Shown here: positions 19,044-24,538 of the stretch, piece by piece | Layout: the number at the start of each line of letters is the position of its first letter | Numbering within the stretch: position 1 is the stretch's first letter | Origin: a virus | Length of the DNA: 32,664 bases | Reading direction: 5' to 3' (one strand) | Virus record (IMG/VR): IMGVR_UViG_3300037010_001623 | Span: 1-32,664 of that record | The notes under the pieces: model-generated | Told to the model about the DNA's origin: nothing | What the model saw: only the letters and a program-made list of their open reading frames with translations | The model's database searches: none | Position numbers and translations under genes: made by a program

Positions 19044-19151
19044 CCTGAAATGACTACGCCCAGTCGGTTATTAGCCGCTGGGCGTAGTTTCGTCGAATTA
19101 TAGAAAAATCCTATGCAAAAACGGTGCATAAGTCAATAGGCAGGTTTATTA
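19044..19151 (-). promoter_or_regulatory. Late promoter-hairpin module, copy 1
   Basis: Same block as at 13094-13203. Leftward: TTGACT (19136-19131), conserved GCACCGTTTTT, TAGGAT at 17 nt, TATAATTCG (19102 down) and, 9 nt later, the stem CTACGCCCAG/CTGGGCGTAG (19087-19078 with 19063-19054) extended by an inner CGG/CCG. The loop and inner stem differ between copies while the outer stem is identical. The distance TTGACT to TATAAT is 28 nt in both, so either the less conserved -10 is used or TATAAT is an activated promoter with ACCGTT at its -35 place. It abuts the stop of the methyltransferase gene. Confidence 0.78.
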
Positions 19152-20834
19152 ATGCACGCCCACCTCTAGTAGCAACACGCTGGTGGCGTGGCTTATTTGG
19201 AAGGTTGTGCCGAAATGTTCGGCGGCTTCCTGCGGTTTTATGCCCATTTCTTCGGCGGCATGGACGGGGTTGCGCAGCCAGCCTTTCAACCTGCCGAACT
19301 CTATGTTGAGGCGTTTCATAAATTTCTGGCTGAATTTGACGTGCATATTGCCGTTTTGGAAGGCTTTTACTTCCATCAGAACGTCACCGTTTACGCAGGT
19401 AAATGCTTGGGATTTGTTGCTACGCCATTCGCGGGCGGCATGACCTGCGCTGGTAACGGTGTCGGGGCTTGTCCAGCCTAGGGTTTTGGCTACCGCTAAA
19501 ATATCGTTGATCAAATCGGCGGCGCGTTCGCTTAGCCCGTTGAACTTTGTATTTTCCCATGACCATGATGAGGTGCTGATACCGCCTGCACGTTCTAGGA
19601 CAATGCGGTATTCAAGCTGGTAATGGGTTAATCCATCTGGGGTGGTAGTGCCGCAGTATCCGTAACGCCATTCTTCATCCCTAAAGGTGCGTTGGTTGGA
19701 TTTGTAGGTGACGATATTGGCTTGCCTTACCATGCCCTCTACTAGATCAACGAGCTGGCTATCGTAATAATGGTTGGCGTTGCGGATTACCCATAGGGTG
19801 ATGGCGTAGGCATTGTCCGCGCTGAAGTCTACCGCCATGTTGTCGCTTAGGGATTCTAAGATGCGTTTGCGGCTGGCGGTGGTCAAACGGTCGGTAATGC
19901 TGGCGTAATTGCCGAAGAATTCGCGCCAGTACAAGGTTTTCAGCCCTTTAATGCGCTCTTTAATGCCTTTTGATAGCCCTGCGTGGTTAATGGCTAGTTC
20001 TTTGAGTAAATCAGGGTCTAGGCTGCTGGCAGCGGCGTAATTGGCTTGTAGCTTGCTCATATCACGCTGATAAAGCATGACAAGGGTTTCGATTAGGGTT
20101 TTACCGGATACCATTTCGTGATTAATGGCTTTTTTCAAGCCGTCCTGCCCTTCTTCTATGGGTTCGGGTTGCTTGGGGAAGGTTTCATTAAACCATGCGT
20201 CAAAGGGGTCTACTTGTGGGTTTTTGGCGTGGTAGCTGCGCCGCGCTCCGATCAGGTCAACGTGGATAATGTGTACTTTTGCCCGTGCGGCGCGTTCTGC
20301 GTCGAGGAAATCACCTGCGTGGATAATGCTGGCAACTGCTTTGCGGGATTCGATGGCGTGGGCGATGGCGGTTGAGCTTTCCCAGCGTTGCGGGATGATC
20401 AGGTACACATCGGTGGCGTTGGCTTCGCGGATGATTTTTGCGGCCCATGCTTCGTATTCTGAGTAAGGTGGGTTTGAGAATACTATATCAACGCGCTTGT
20501 CGATTAGCGTGGCGTGGTGAAAGTCCGTGCCTACCGGGATAATGTCGTTAGGCTGGCGGTTAATCAAAGCGGTGCTTTTTTCAATGGCGTATTTGTTGCC
20601 GTTTTTTCCTGCCAAGGCGGTTAATACGCGCCCGTCGCCTGCGCCGCAGTCTAATACGTTTGAGCTTTCGCGGTGATCAACGCGCATGGTGCGGATATGG
20701 CGTTCAATAACGCTAATCATCGTGGCGGTGGTGGGATACCATTCAAAATCCTGCTCGGTTTCGCGCAGGTATTTTACGAGGGTGCTAGTGGTTGCGGTGG
20801 TGGCTGGTTTTGCCGTAATATTCAAAGTGGTCAT
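19149..20834 (-). CDS. NPPY-type DNA methyltransferase with DUF4942
   Basis: A 561-residue protein. SAM-binding motif I is NVLDCGAGDGRVLTAL (near residue 62) and the catalytic motif IV is IVFSNPPYSEYEAW (near 120), characteristic of adenine-N6 methyltransferases. PTTATMISVIERHIRT before motif I is typical of phage MTases of this type. The C-terminal half (about 250-450: LYWREFFGNYASITDRLTTA, SADNAYAITLWVIRNANHYY) matches DUF4942, a domain often joined to phage methyltransferases. Lacking a nuclease partner, it is probably a solitary protective or regulatory methylase. The leader contains an SD-in-loop hairpin like that of the 37-residue gene upstream. Confidence 0.88.
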   Translation of the reverse strand: MTTLNITAKPATTATTSTLVKYLRETEQDFEWYPTTATMISVIERHIRTMRVDHRESSNVLDCGAGDGRVLTALAGKNGNKYAIEKSTALINRQPNDIIPVGTDFHHATLIDKRVDIVFSNPPYSEYEAWAAKIIREANATDVYLIIPQRWESSTAIAHAIESRKAVASIIHAGDFLDAERAARAKVHIIHVDLIGARRSYHAKNPQVDPFDAWFNETFPKQPEPIEEGQDGLKKAINHEMVSGKTLIETLVMLYQRDMSKLQANYAAASSLDPDLLKELAINHAGLSKGIKERIKGLKTLYWREFFGNYASITDRLTTASRKRILESLSDNMAVDFSADNAYAITLWVIRNANHYYDSQLVDLVEGMVRQANIVTYKSNQRTFRDEEWRYGYCGTTTPDGLTHYQLEYRIVLERAGGISTSSWSWENTKFNGLSERAADLINDILAVAKTLGWTSPDTVTSAGHAAREWRSNKSQAFTCVNGDVLMEVKAFQNGNMHVKFSQKFMKRLNIEFGRLKGWLRNPVHAAEEMGIKPQEAAEHFGTTFQISHATSVLLLEVGVH

Positions 20835-21139: not shown

Positions 21140-21832
21140 TTATGACCCTACGTTCCATATTAACGCGCCCGGTGTGGCGTGTCGTTTGGCGAATTGCCAT
21201 AGCTTTGCGTCGTAATTTTTACAGCTTGGGTAGGGCGGCAATATCTTTGCATCCTGTTCAAAACTTTCTGGGGCTATATAGGCTTTCGCCCTGCCTACAT
21301 TCGCGTCTTTCTTGCCGATTAATACCGTGTGGAAGGCTGCATTTGGGAAAGCGCGTTGTAAGCCGCGCGTCAATGTGCCTGACCCGCTAACCGTCCATAC
21401 CTCGTGCGGTTGCTCGCCCGCGGATAGTGCGGCGGCGGCGATTGCGTCTAGGCTTGCGTCAGTGTCTACGCCGAAGGGGATTAACGCCGCGCCTGTCTCG
21501 GCGGCGTAGGCGCGTGCTTTGCTTTGAACGTTGCTTAGGTAGCCGTGCGGTATCATCACTATCTTTGCGCCCGCATCCTTGGCTGCTAGGGTTAGTGGGT
21601 GGGGATGGTTGCGTTTGGCAGTGAAGATGGTGGCGCGTTTGCCCACCTCGCGGCAGGCTACCGCTAGGGCTAACTGGGCATAACCGAACGCGGGGCTGGC
21701 GTAGACGAACTCGTGATGATGGTCTTGCGCTACCAGCGGCTGAATGACGCGCCGTTTTGTGCCGCCGTGCAGTAGATCGTCGCGCACTACTTTGAATCCG
21801 GCGTGGATGGTGATAATGGGTAGCGGTAGCAT
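21140..21832 (-). CDS. Short fold-type-II PLP-dependent enzyme
   Basis: A 230-residue homologue of the ACC deaminase/D-cysteine desulfhydrase/tryptophan-synthase-beta fold. VVRDDLLHGGTKRRVIQPLV matches the family's REDL..GGNK.RKLE motif, with Lys26 as the expected Schiff-base lysine. SPAFGYAQLALAVACREVGK corresponds to the substrate-binding SNQ-type helix, and WTVSGSGTLTRGL (149-153 SGSGT) to the phosphate-binding Gly loop. At 230 residues it is about 100 shorter than free-standing enzymes. Its start overlaps the stop of the ParB-methyltransferase gene (TAATG), so the two are coupled and probably act together, plausibly on DNA bases or nucleotides. Substrate unknown. Confidence 0.8.
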   Translation of the reverse strand: MLPLPIITIHAGFKVVRDDLLHGGTKRRVIQPLVAQDHHHEFVYASPAFGYAQLALAVACREVGKRATIFTAKRNHPHPLTLAAKDAGAKIVMIPHGYLSNVQSKARAYAAETGAALIPFGVDTDASLDAIAAAALSAGEQPHEVWTVSGSGTLTRGLQRAFPNAAFHTVLIGKKDANVGRAKAYIAPESFEQDAKILPPYPSCKNYDAKLWQFAKRHATPGALIWNVGS

Positions 21833-23385
21833 TACATCACCGCGCCGTATTTGGTGGCGGGGTCGGGTATCTCGCTATCAACGCCCTGTTCTAATGCGTC
21901 GTTTACGTCCACGTCGCCGCAGAGATCGGTGGCTTTACGCGCATCGCCTTTAACAAAGATTAGAATATTTTGGTGGGTTTTCCCTAGTTTTCTAGTGGTG
22001 CTGAAGGCTTTGCCCATTCTAATGGGTAGGCTGCCCACGTTGGTTATAAGAATTCCTTCGTTGTAGTAATGCAGACCCGCTTTTATGAAAGCGTCGATAG
22101 TATCGCCGACAAAATTGTAGTAATTGCCTTTTTTATCGCGCACCTCACCTACTACAAAACAGGCGAAGGCGTTTTCTTTTAATAGGGCGCAGGTGTTGTT
22201 TATTATTTCAAGGTATGCTTCTTTGAATTCGGCATACTTTAGCGTGCTTATGTCTTTGGGATTGTCGCTGTAAACTTCTAAGTCGGCATACGGTGGGCAT
22301 GAGAATATCAGGTCGGCTTGCACGTCTTGGCAGGTTTTTTGGATTAAGCGGCTGTCGCCTTCTACCCAAATTGGCTGTATGTCGTCTTGTGCGCATATAT
22401 CGGCGGCTTGTTGACGGTTTTCGGCTACTTGTTCGCCGCGCAATTCATGCCCGATGTATTGTAGCCCTAATTTTGCGGCGACTATGCCGCGCACACTACC
22501 TCCCGCGAAGGGGTCTAGGATTGTGCCGCCGGATGGGGCGAACCAGCGGTAGATGATCTCGCATAGCACCGGATCAAAAATGCTAGTGCCTTTGGTTTGA
22601 AATGCGTCGGGTTGGGCTTCGTGGAATTCCGCCCATGATAATACCTTGCCGATTTGTTGTTCGTAGCGTTGTTTTTTGTCGTAAACCTCTGGCGGCTGGC
22701 ATCCGGTGGCGAAGAGTAGGCCGCTATCCGCTTCGCCGCTTTCACCGCGCCCTGCCTCGCTTTTTATGCCTAGGGCTAGCCAGCTTTTCTTGCGGTTCAT
22801 CCACCAGCCTTCCCGTGCGTTGAAAGTGGAGAAGGGCGGAATCATGAAGCGCTCGGCTAGGGATACACGTTCGGTGGGTGCGCCGCCTTGCGGGGCGGAT
22901 TCGTGCGGCTCTTGGTCGTGCGGTTCGTCAAAGCTGGCTAGAAAATCGTTTATTTCCGCATCATCGAAGCCCAGTAGGTTTAAGTCTATTCCGGCGGCTT
23001 GCAGGGATTTGATTTCTTGCTCAAGTATGCCTTCGTCGAAAATGCTGTTTCGCGCCACCCGGTTGTCGGCGATGACGTACATGCGTACTTGATCAGGTGT
23101 CCAGCCGTCGGCTAGTAACGCGGGTATTGTTCCGGTGGGGATGGCGGTTTTGTCTGCCATCCGCAAGGTTTTGCCGGATGCGTAGAAACGTTCGGCGGCG
23201 ACTTGCTTGCGTCCGTGTCCTGCAATCATGCGGTAACGTTCGCCGTTGCGTTCAAGTAACGCGGGCGCTGTCCAGCCTACCTCCTGCATTAATGATTCGA
23301 TTTGATGCAGTTGCGCATCAGGATGTGTATTACTGTTTGCGTCGTAATCGTCGATTAGCGACAGCGGTATAAACTGGATATTCAT
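21832..23385 (-). CDS. ParB-like domain fused to DNA methyltransferase
   Basis: A 517-residue fusion. Residues 1-110 are a ParB-like domain (FIPLSLIDDYDANSNTHPDA; RYRMIAGHGRKQVAAERFY with the GHGR box). The methyltransferase has FDPVLCEIIYRWFAPSGGTI, motif I ILDPFAGGSVRGIVAAKLG (near 291) and motif IV DLIFSCPPYADLEVYSDNP (near 361). Motif I precedes IV, unlike beta-class N4/N6 enzymes, and CPPY replaces the usual DPPY/SPPY, so target atom and even methyl transfer are uncertain. The related phage families are usually annotated as DNA modification methylases. The Shine-Dalgarno signal lies in a G8 tract 7 nt before the ATG. It is the first gene of a coupled pair with the PLP enzyme. Confidence 0.87.
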   Translation of the reverse strand: MNIQFIPLSLIDDYDANSNTHPDAQLHQIESLMQEVGWTAPALLERNGERYRMIAGHGRKQVAAERFYASGKTLRMADKTAIPTGTIPALLADGWTPDQVRMYVIADNRVARNSIFDEGILEQEIKSLQAAGIDLNLLGFDDAEINDFLASFDEPHDQEPHESAPQGGAPTERVSLAERFMIPPFSTFNAREGWWMNRKKSWLALGIKSEAGRGESGEADSGLLFATGCQPPEVYDKKQRYEQQIGKVLSWAEFHEAQPDAFQTKGTSIFDPVLCEIIYRWFAPSGGTILDPFAGGSVRGIVAAKLGLQYIGHELRGEQVAENRQQAADICAQDDIQPIWVEGDSRLIQKTCQDVQADLIFSCPPYADLEVYSDNPKDISTLKYAEFKEAYLEIINNTCALLKENAFACFVVGEVRDKKGNYYNFVGDTIDAFIKAGLHYYNEGILITNVGSLPIRMGKAFSTTRKLGKTHQNILIFVKGDARKATDLCGDVDVNDALEQGVDSEIPDPATKYGAVM

Positions 23386-23391
23386 GCGATA

Positions 23392-23515
23392 CCCCCCCCT
23401 AAAATGTTGAAAACGCTATATATATATTGGAGGCGCGGTCTATATGGCGAAGCCCTATAGAGATTTACCCCCCCATGCCATCAAAAAACAAAAGTCAATA
23501 GTTTTTTAAAGAAAA
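23392..23515 (-). promoter_or_regulatory. Leader of the modification operon with two poly-G tracts
   Basis: Between the Q-like gene and the ParB-methyltransferase. Leftward it holds TATTGACTT (same as in the late modules), then a G7 tract (23474-23468), a TAAATC/TATAGG region, an alternating TATATATATA stretch, and a G8 tract (23399-23392) that serves as the Shine-Dalgarno sequence. No -10 lies at normal distance from TTGACT; TTGATG with TATAGG at 19 nt, spanning the G7 tract, is an alternative. Promoter activity is therefore likely but its exact elements are not certain. Confidence 0.5.
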
Positions 23516-24088: not shown

Positions 24089-24538
24089 TCAATCCAAAAA
24101 CGCCAACAACTCAGCAGGCATAGCCGCACGCGCCACCACTGGCGCAGGCACTGGCGCAGGCACTGGCACTGGCACTGGCACTGGCGCAGGCACTGGCGCA
24201 GGCACTTTCAGCGGATACACCCCAGCCCCGCCAAAGTCATACGGATTACGCAACGCCTTGCCGTATACCAATCGCGCATTCGGTCTACGCCCCTCTTCCT
24301 CCTCCACATTCCGCGCAATCTCACAGCCCCTTCTTTTCGCATTAAAGAACTCCAACGTCATCGCAAACGCCGCCGCAGGCTGACAAAAGCCATCCGCATC
24401 AACCTCACCCCCCGCAGCCAACCAAGCCAACTGCGTCATCGTATACCCCGAATTAACCGTGCTCAGCTCAACCAAACGCGCTTGCAGATCATACCGCTCA
24501 CCCGTAGCCGACTGCTTATTCAACGCCTTAGCACTCAC
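24089..24538 (-). CDS. Unknown protein with Val-Pro-Ala-Pro repeat
   Basis: A 149-residue protein starting with GTG at 24538 (GGGGGTG upstream), overlapping the DnaT-like gene by 11 nt. The N-terminal part (SGYTMTQLAWLAAGGEVDAD, CQPAAAFAMTLEFFNAKRRG) looks globular. Residues about 108-135 are a low-complexity VPAPVPAPVPVPVP run encoded by imperfect 6- and 12-bp DNA repeats (24137-24208), probably an extended stiff arm. It lies between DnaT-like and Q-like genes; function unknown. Confidence 0.7.
   Translation of the reverse strand: MSAKALNKQSATGERYDLQARLVELSTVNSGYTMTQLAWLAAGGEVDADGFCQPAAAFAMTLEFFNAKRRGCEIARNVEEEEGRRPNARLVYGKALRNPYDFGGAGVYPLKVPAPVPAPVPVPVPVPAPVPAPVVARAAMPAELLAFLD

Follow-up and report, generated by a model that had tools for sequence, protein, structure and literature searches.

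A widespread phage gene pair of a ParB-linked CPPY DNA methyltransferase and a short PLP enzyme as a candidate DNA hypermodification system

PLP enzymes acting on base-attached amino acids reportedly have a precedent in thymidine hypermodification (Lee et al. in 2018 and 2021), and in 2021 these authors are reported to have classed them as PLP-dependent decarboxylases that act on DNA-linked amino acids. The PLP enzymes of ViI-like phages (Vi01_182 and PP35 ORF169) and Montesquieu_41 of Glutamicibacter phage Montesquieu belong to base-hypermodification gene sets, in which their partners are a dUMP hydroxymethylase, a 5-hmdU kinase and alpha-glutamyl/putrescinyl thymine pyrophosphorylases (aGPT-Pplases). 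For PP35, a 'PLP enzyme' appears in the list of 5-hmdU transformation genes, a set described as common to all Ackermannviridae (PMC6336734).

In the CmoA-CmoX-CmoY system of Synechococcus phage S-B43, which gives 5-carboxymethylcytosine, a phage DNA alkyltransferase likewise acts with a partner that changes SAM chemistry, followed by processing, and genes with ParB domains often lie nearby. Iyer et al. in 2013 reportedly predicted phage DNA modifications made from modified SAM derivatives, and that work may already hold part of the idea developed here. Finally, phage AdoMet decarboxylases (AdoMetDC, SpeD) are known as polyamine genes; that of Croceibacter phage P2559S is a genuine enzyme by complementation and was discussed in terms of polyamine metabolism (PMC9992855).

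The window analysed here is an entire IMG/VR virus record of 32,664 bp that encodes a terminase, a DnaB-type helicase and a KilA-N protein. It carries two adjoining genes, named here MTase and PALP, with the following features.

21832..23385, minus strand: MTase gene, ParB-like domain plus permuted CPPY DNA alkyltransferase, 517 aa (open reading frame, Pfam and PHROG matches, structure matches)
22900..23385, minus strand: ParB/Srx-like N-terminal domain, residues 1-162 (phrog_620 match over 1-162, E 6.7e-30; ParB/Noc structures matched)
22486..22518, minus strand: SAM-binding motif I LDPFAGGSVRG, residues 290-300, including G296 and R299 (family alignment)
22366..22410, minus strand: stretch separating the motif II helix from the motif III strand, approximate limits; PALP insertion site in other phages (alignments)
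22288..22302, minus strand: motif IV SCPPY, residues 362-366 (sequence, family alignment)
21140..21832, minus strand: PALP gene, 230-aa fold-type II PLP enzyme, phrog_7093-like (open reading frame, PHROG match, alignment, AlphaFold2 model)
21749..21766, minus strand: GGTKRR with catalytic Lys26 (Lys26 in 116/116 dereplicated PALPs)
21362..21388, minus strand: PLP phosphate-binding loop SGSGTLTRG, residues 149-157 (G152 invariant, S151 and L154 97-98%)
21203..21214, minus strand: C-terminal YDAK motif, in which Y207 and K210 never vary; Y[ED]GK in thymidine-hypermodification PALPs (alignments)
21155..21157, minus strand: Trp226 of [LI]W-N-V-G, kept in phage DNA-modification PALPs and absent from E. 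coli CysK, CysM, IlvA and DcyD

As the original prediction had it, the two genes overlap at TAATG: both reading frames were found, and at 21830-21834 one base is common to the MTase stop TAA and the PALP ATG, a junction by which the genes are translationally coupled. Directly downstream of the pair lies a second methyltransferase-like gene (19149-20834, minus strand, 561 aa) with an SNPPY-type motif and DUF4942.

The N-terminus of the MTase matches the ParB-like PHROGs 15396 and 620 and its C-terminus the DNA methyltransferase profile phrog_498, with a Pfam PF01555 match confined to the motif I end. Its motif I and motif IV regions are homologous to those of the beta-class DNA amino-methyltransferases TTHA0409 and CcrM. 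However, motif I precedes motif IV, as the original prediction had also noted, whereas in the beta-class order, exemplified by the solved relative TTHA0409 (2zie), TSPPY comes first and DPFAG last; the fold of the MTase is therefore circularly permuted. It further differs from TTHA0409 and CcrM in carrying Cys in place of Asp, Asn or Ser before PPY, in its ParB fusion and in the partner of its family, PALP or AdoMetDC. By contrast with CmoX, a HhaI-type C5 cytosine methyltransferase that uses Cx-SAM, it has an amino-methyltransferase-type fold, CPPY and a PLP enzyme as partner, and it matches PF01555 and phrog_498, not PF00145. The canonical N4/N6 motif IV, [DNS]PP[YFW], is replaced by CPPY in the window and in nearly the whole family, where motif IV reads [FL][ST]CPPY almost throughout, including in members without PALP and in AdoMetDC-linked members. 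SCPPY had been taken as a reason to doubt ordinary methylation; as a trait common to the family, partnerless MTases included, it does not discriminate, and it was discarded as an indicator of hypermodification.

PALP was predicted to keep Lys26 and the SGSGTLTRG loop while being about 100 residues shorter than free enzymes, and both statements hold: it has 230 aa, compared to 323 for E. coli CysK, 328 for DcyD and 279 for the PHROG profile. Among 116 dereplicated members, less than 90% identical to one another, Lys26, R17-D18-D19, G24, G121, G152, Y207 and K210 are the same throughout, with W226 and N227 nearly fixed. The AlphaFold2 model has the fold-type II architecture (pLDDT 96.9) and matches the ACC deaminase homologue 1j0a with a Foldseek TM score (query) of 0.82. 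PALP is related to phrog_7093, named 'threonine dehydratase'. In Pfam PF00291 the window protein scores 24.8 bits, below the gathering score of 35 bits, and 98 of 103 PALP relatives match PF00291 at E<=0.001. The residue conservation and the modelled fold rule out a chance resemblance, and the 'minimal' PALP is a genuine, conserved short family and no degraded enzyme. A non-catalytic DNA-binding or scaffold domain would accord with the shortened C-terminus and with the insertion of PALP into the MTase in some phages, but we consider this highly improbable, since none of the PLP-binding and catalytic residues varies across the 116 members; for the same reason degeneration is unlikely, and PALP is predicted to be an active enzyme.

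A search of viral contigs with the single PALP sequence gave no match, and profile searches were required; these returned at least 543 stretches confirmed by tblastn, plus 39 genome loci. Pairing was counted in viral loci centred on PALP in which each flank spans 2.5 kb or more. Of these 63 loci, 57 contain the same MTase family (38/41 once dereplicated at 90%), whereas the MTase query has any match in about 0.3% of phage records (150/50,697). The count comes from a collection that was PALP-centred and made of contig fragments, so that absences are soft; several of the exceptions carry that MTase or a distant TSPPY methyltransferase elsewhere on the contig. All 167 non-fused pairs have both genes on the same strand, with PALP directly downstream within 300 bp in 116 of them. 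When the search was centred on the MTase, PALP was present in 34/75 newly fetched loci. Far from lacking a conserved neighbourhood, the two families therefore co-occur in many contigs, and in 11 records they are fused. In the neighbourhood survey for further conserved modification genes, only terminase, portal and similar genes recurred; no CmoA was recognised among these recurring neighbours, and recurrence was seen neither for the MTA/SAH nucleosidase noted by eye in marine phage L051 nor for the PAPS reductase of Erythrobacter phages. Our literature searches found no report of the PALP-MTase pair. Taken together, these data make it almost certain that PALP and MTase form one functional unit.

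In L051 (2898-5257) PALP adjoins another TSPPY methyltransferase with a DPSSGWGG motif I and without ParB, the locus also holding the MTA/SAH-nucleosidase-like gene; this suggests that PALP also pairs with a second methyltransferase family. Some public records are misannotated: the PALP of Microcystis phage Mae-JY30 (L002 5995-6705) is named 'DNA modification methylase', and that of mycobacteriophages (L182 1406-2275) 'nucleoside deaminase' or 'carboxylate deaminase'.

No PALP was found elsewhere on the contigs, themselves fragments, of 26 records with a partnerless MTase, nor, except in AlanGrant, in the complete phages tested that carry the MTase; the complete phages Listeria B054 and phiFL3A have a partnerless MTase and PALP nowhere in the genome. 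On the MTase tree, which is poorly resolved with many open forks, some 11 changes in the presence of PALP, by gain or by loss, are counted, and PALP is therefore dispensable. No conserved MTase columns are specific to PALP-linked members. These observations leave room for the main competitor of the scheme proposed below, namely that the MTase performs plain N4/N6 (or C5) methylation while PALP acts separately, for instance on a metabolite or on another DNA group: partnerless MTases such as those of Listeria B054 and phiFL3A share the same donor pocket and resemble standalone methylases, the conserved positions of PALP-linked and partnerless members are indistinguishable, and the MTase is homologous to TSPPY methylases. 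We nevertheless regard plain methylation as rather unlikely, because PALP depends near-obligately on the MTase and has repeatedly been fused into its methyltransferase domain, and because a sister clade is paired with AdoMetDC.

In 11 records from several lineages the PALP domain forms part of the MTase chain itself, inserted at a single fixed position. The fused proteins are those of Erythrobacter phages R6L and ZS04, of Pseudanabaena phage Pam4, and of L012, L014, L018, L020, L022, L029, L038 and L039, of which L012 and L038 are truncated at contig ends. L118, a fusion according to the scan, was excluded because its frame is broken. In the aligned fusions the insertion point lies after the motif II helix and before the motif III strand, presumably away from the active-site face of the MTase fold, a point against the scheme proposed below. 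The Pam4 insert matches the profile of hypermodification PALPs at 98.5% (E 3e-15), compared to 96.4% for the main MTase-linked PALPs, which suggests that PALP joined the MTase more than once. The AlphaFold2 model of the fused protein (pLDDT 62.9) is unusable for active-site geometry.

Profile-profile comparison relates the MTase-linked PALPs to the thymidine-hypermodification group (96.7%, E 4e-10) rather than to free enzymes, for which the values are 28% for DcyD/ACC deaminase, 22% for CysK/CysM and 6.5% for IlvA. As single sequences, the Montesquieu and AlanGrant enzymes match the window-type profile at 96% and 94%, respectively, and that of Vi01 weakly, at 13%. In a tree, all phage PALPs fall on one side of the branch that separates them from five free enzymes, with a support (91/86) that is not decisive. 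The PALP of mycobacteriophages AlanGrant and Vincenzo adjoins a CPPY ParB-MTase. It matches 335 phage records, among them Salmonella phage Vi01; judged by size and host, most are of the ViI-like Ackermannviridae type. Its closest relative outside mycobacteriophages is Montesquieu_41, whose gene overlaps one for a clade 2 aGPT-Pplase and has a P-loop nucleotide kinase nearby. The ViI-like enzymes, Montesquieu_41 and the window PALP alike have fold-type II, KR[DE]D, G-x-K, Y[ED]GK and FW-VG, and a place in base hypermodification is likewise proposed for the window PALP; the latter, however, is a shorter protein with a single ParB-MTase as partner, and no hydroxymethylase, kinase or aGPT-Pplase was found among the window proteins scanned, which are some of the reading frames of a fragment.

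Diverged PALPs are also encoded in phage-like contigs (L115 4396-11051, L116 5814-9792, L119 386-4880 and L113 5635-10898), where they adjoin a thymidylate-synthase-like gene (where contained), a dCMP deaminase and proteins of 330-400 aa without assigned function, and in L115 additionally a C5 methyltransferase. These loci look like further base-modification cassettes. The proteins beside PALP in L113 and L115 have no counterpart in Pfam, and the ones taken further matched neither a named PHROG nor a phage protein; that they are aGPT-Pplases is thus no more than a suspicion.

A different partner was found in Pseudomonas phage ZRG1 and Croceibacter phage P2559S, in which an AdoMetDC gene follows and overlaps the CPPY MTase gene. 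A search with MTases of this type alone returned 80 viral loci, picked only by MTase motif; AdoMetDC lies downstream in 73/80 of them and none of the 80 has PALP, and across all loci the two partners never occur together. The AdoMetDC active-site motifs are intact in 74-75 of 75 sequences. Motif I of this clade reads FAGD[TS]VFG, compared to FAGGSVRG in PALP-type MTases, and the window MTase, with FAGGSVRG and PALP, stands outside it. The donor pockets differ accordingly: AdoMetDC-linked MTases all have D296/F299, whereas PALP-linked and partnerless FAGG MTases all have G296/R299. From the sequences, Arg299 may contact the SAM carboxylate, which is absent in decarboxylated SAM (dcSAM), and G296D/R299F would be expected if the MTases of the AdoMetDC clade no longer bind the carboxylate. 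The location of the genes beside CPPY DNA methyltransferases (L178 4424-4813; L185 3962-4282; L186-L265), a context other than that of cyanophage speD, suggests that AdoMetDC serves DNA aminopropylation and not polyamine synthesis in those phages.

The shared gene position and mutual exclusion of PALP and AdoMetDC would also be accounted for if PALP supplied the donor, making from SAM, or from some other amino acid, a new alkyl donor for the MTase. Such supply has a precedent in CmoA, which provides Cx-SAM to CmoX, and AdoMetDC would likewise give dcSAM in the sister clade. We find this improbable for PALP, as the donor pocket is the same in PALP-linked and partnerless MTases whereas the AdoMetDC clade has altered several fixed positions, and the kinship of PALP with hypermodification-cassette enzymes better fits action on DNA.

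That the product of the pair is a hypermodification beyond methyl, as originally predicted, is in our judgement probable: the conserved coupling, the fusions and the kinship of PALP with thymidine-hypermodification cassettes speak for it, although the argument from SCPPY has fallen away. The end result may be an amino-acid-derived group on a DNA base. We tentatively propose, as the best explanation though at somewhat less than even odds, that the ParB-linked CPPY enzyme is a SAM-using DNA alkyltransferase that would move the 3-amino-3-carboxypropyl (acp) side chain of SAM, instead of or besides methyl, and so leave an amino acid on the base. PALP with its PLP cofactor would then work on this DNA-linked amino acid, most likely by decarboxylation, to give a positively charged 3-aminopropyl base that may block host nucleases. 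This order of steps is suggested because the precedent of PLP enzymes on DNA-linked amino acids combines with AdoMetDC as the alternative partner. The acp transfer, the decarboxylation, the target base and the anti-restriction purpose are what we infer, and we know of no modified nucleoside for any of these phages. In the sister clade the order would be reversed: AdoMetDC would make dcSAM, from which the MTase with its altered donor pocket could transfer aminopropyl directly. It is conceivable, if somewhat doubtful, that two unrelated decarboxylases, PALP after transfer and AdoMetDC before it, thus converge on the same 3-aminopropylated base, with the PLP domain sometimes built into the alkyltransferase.

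Acp transfer might instead be followed by another PLP reaction (elimination, racemisation or transamination), since the nearest free fold relatives of PALP are of the ACC deaminase, D-cysteine desulfhydrase and threonine deaminase types, which are lyases or deaminases and not decarboxylases. We hold this to be quite improbable, because decarboxylation alone makes the PALP and AdoMetDC routes converge. The class reported for the ViI relative, that of a decarboxylase, agrees with decarboxylation by PALP.

If true, the scheme would add a way of modifying DNA with the part of SAM other than its methyl group, would explain the presence of AdoMetDC beside DNA methylases in many phages, and would provide a compact enzyme pair, or a single fused enzyme, that places a primary amine on DNA. 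The chemistry is directly testable, since both versions exist in cultured phages: that with PALP in Erythrobacter phages R6L and ZS04, Microcystis phage Mae-JY30, Pseudanabaena phage Pam4 and mycobacteriophages Vincenzo and AlanGrant, and that with AdoMetDC in Croceibacter phage P2559S and Pseudomonas phage ZRG1.

Three further observations concern the window itself. A run of Cs on the plus strand (23391-23399), just upstream of the MTase start, is a possible phase-variable or assembly-error site. A long PVPAPVPVP repeat protein is encoded at 24089-24538 (minus strand), and its tandem repeat leaves a long open frame on the opposite strand. Near the left end of the record, a collagen-repeat protein (PF01391; 233-1213, minus strand) is probably a tail fibre.
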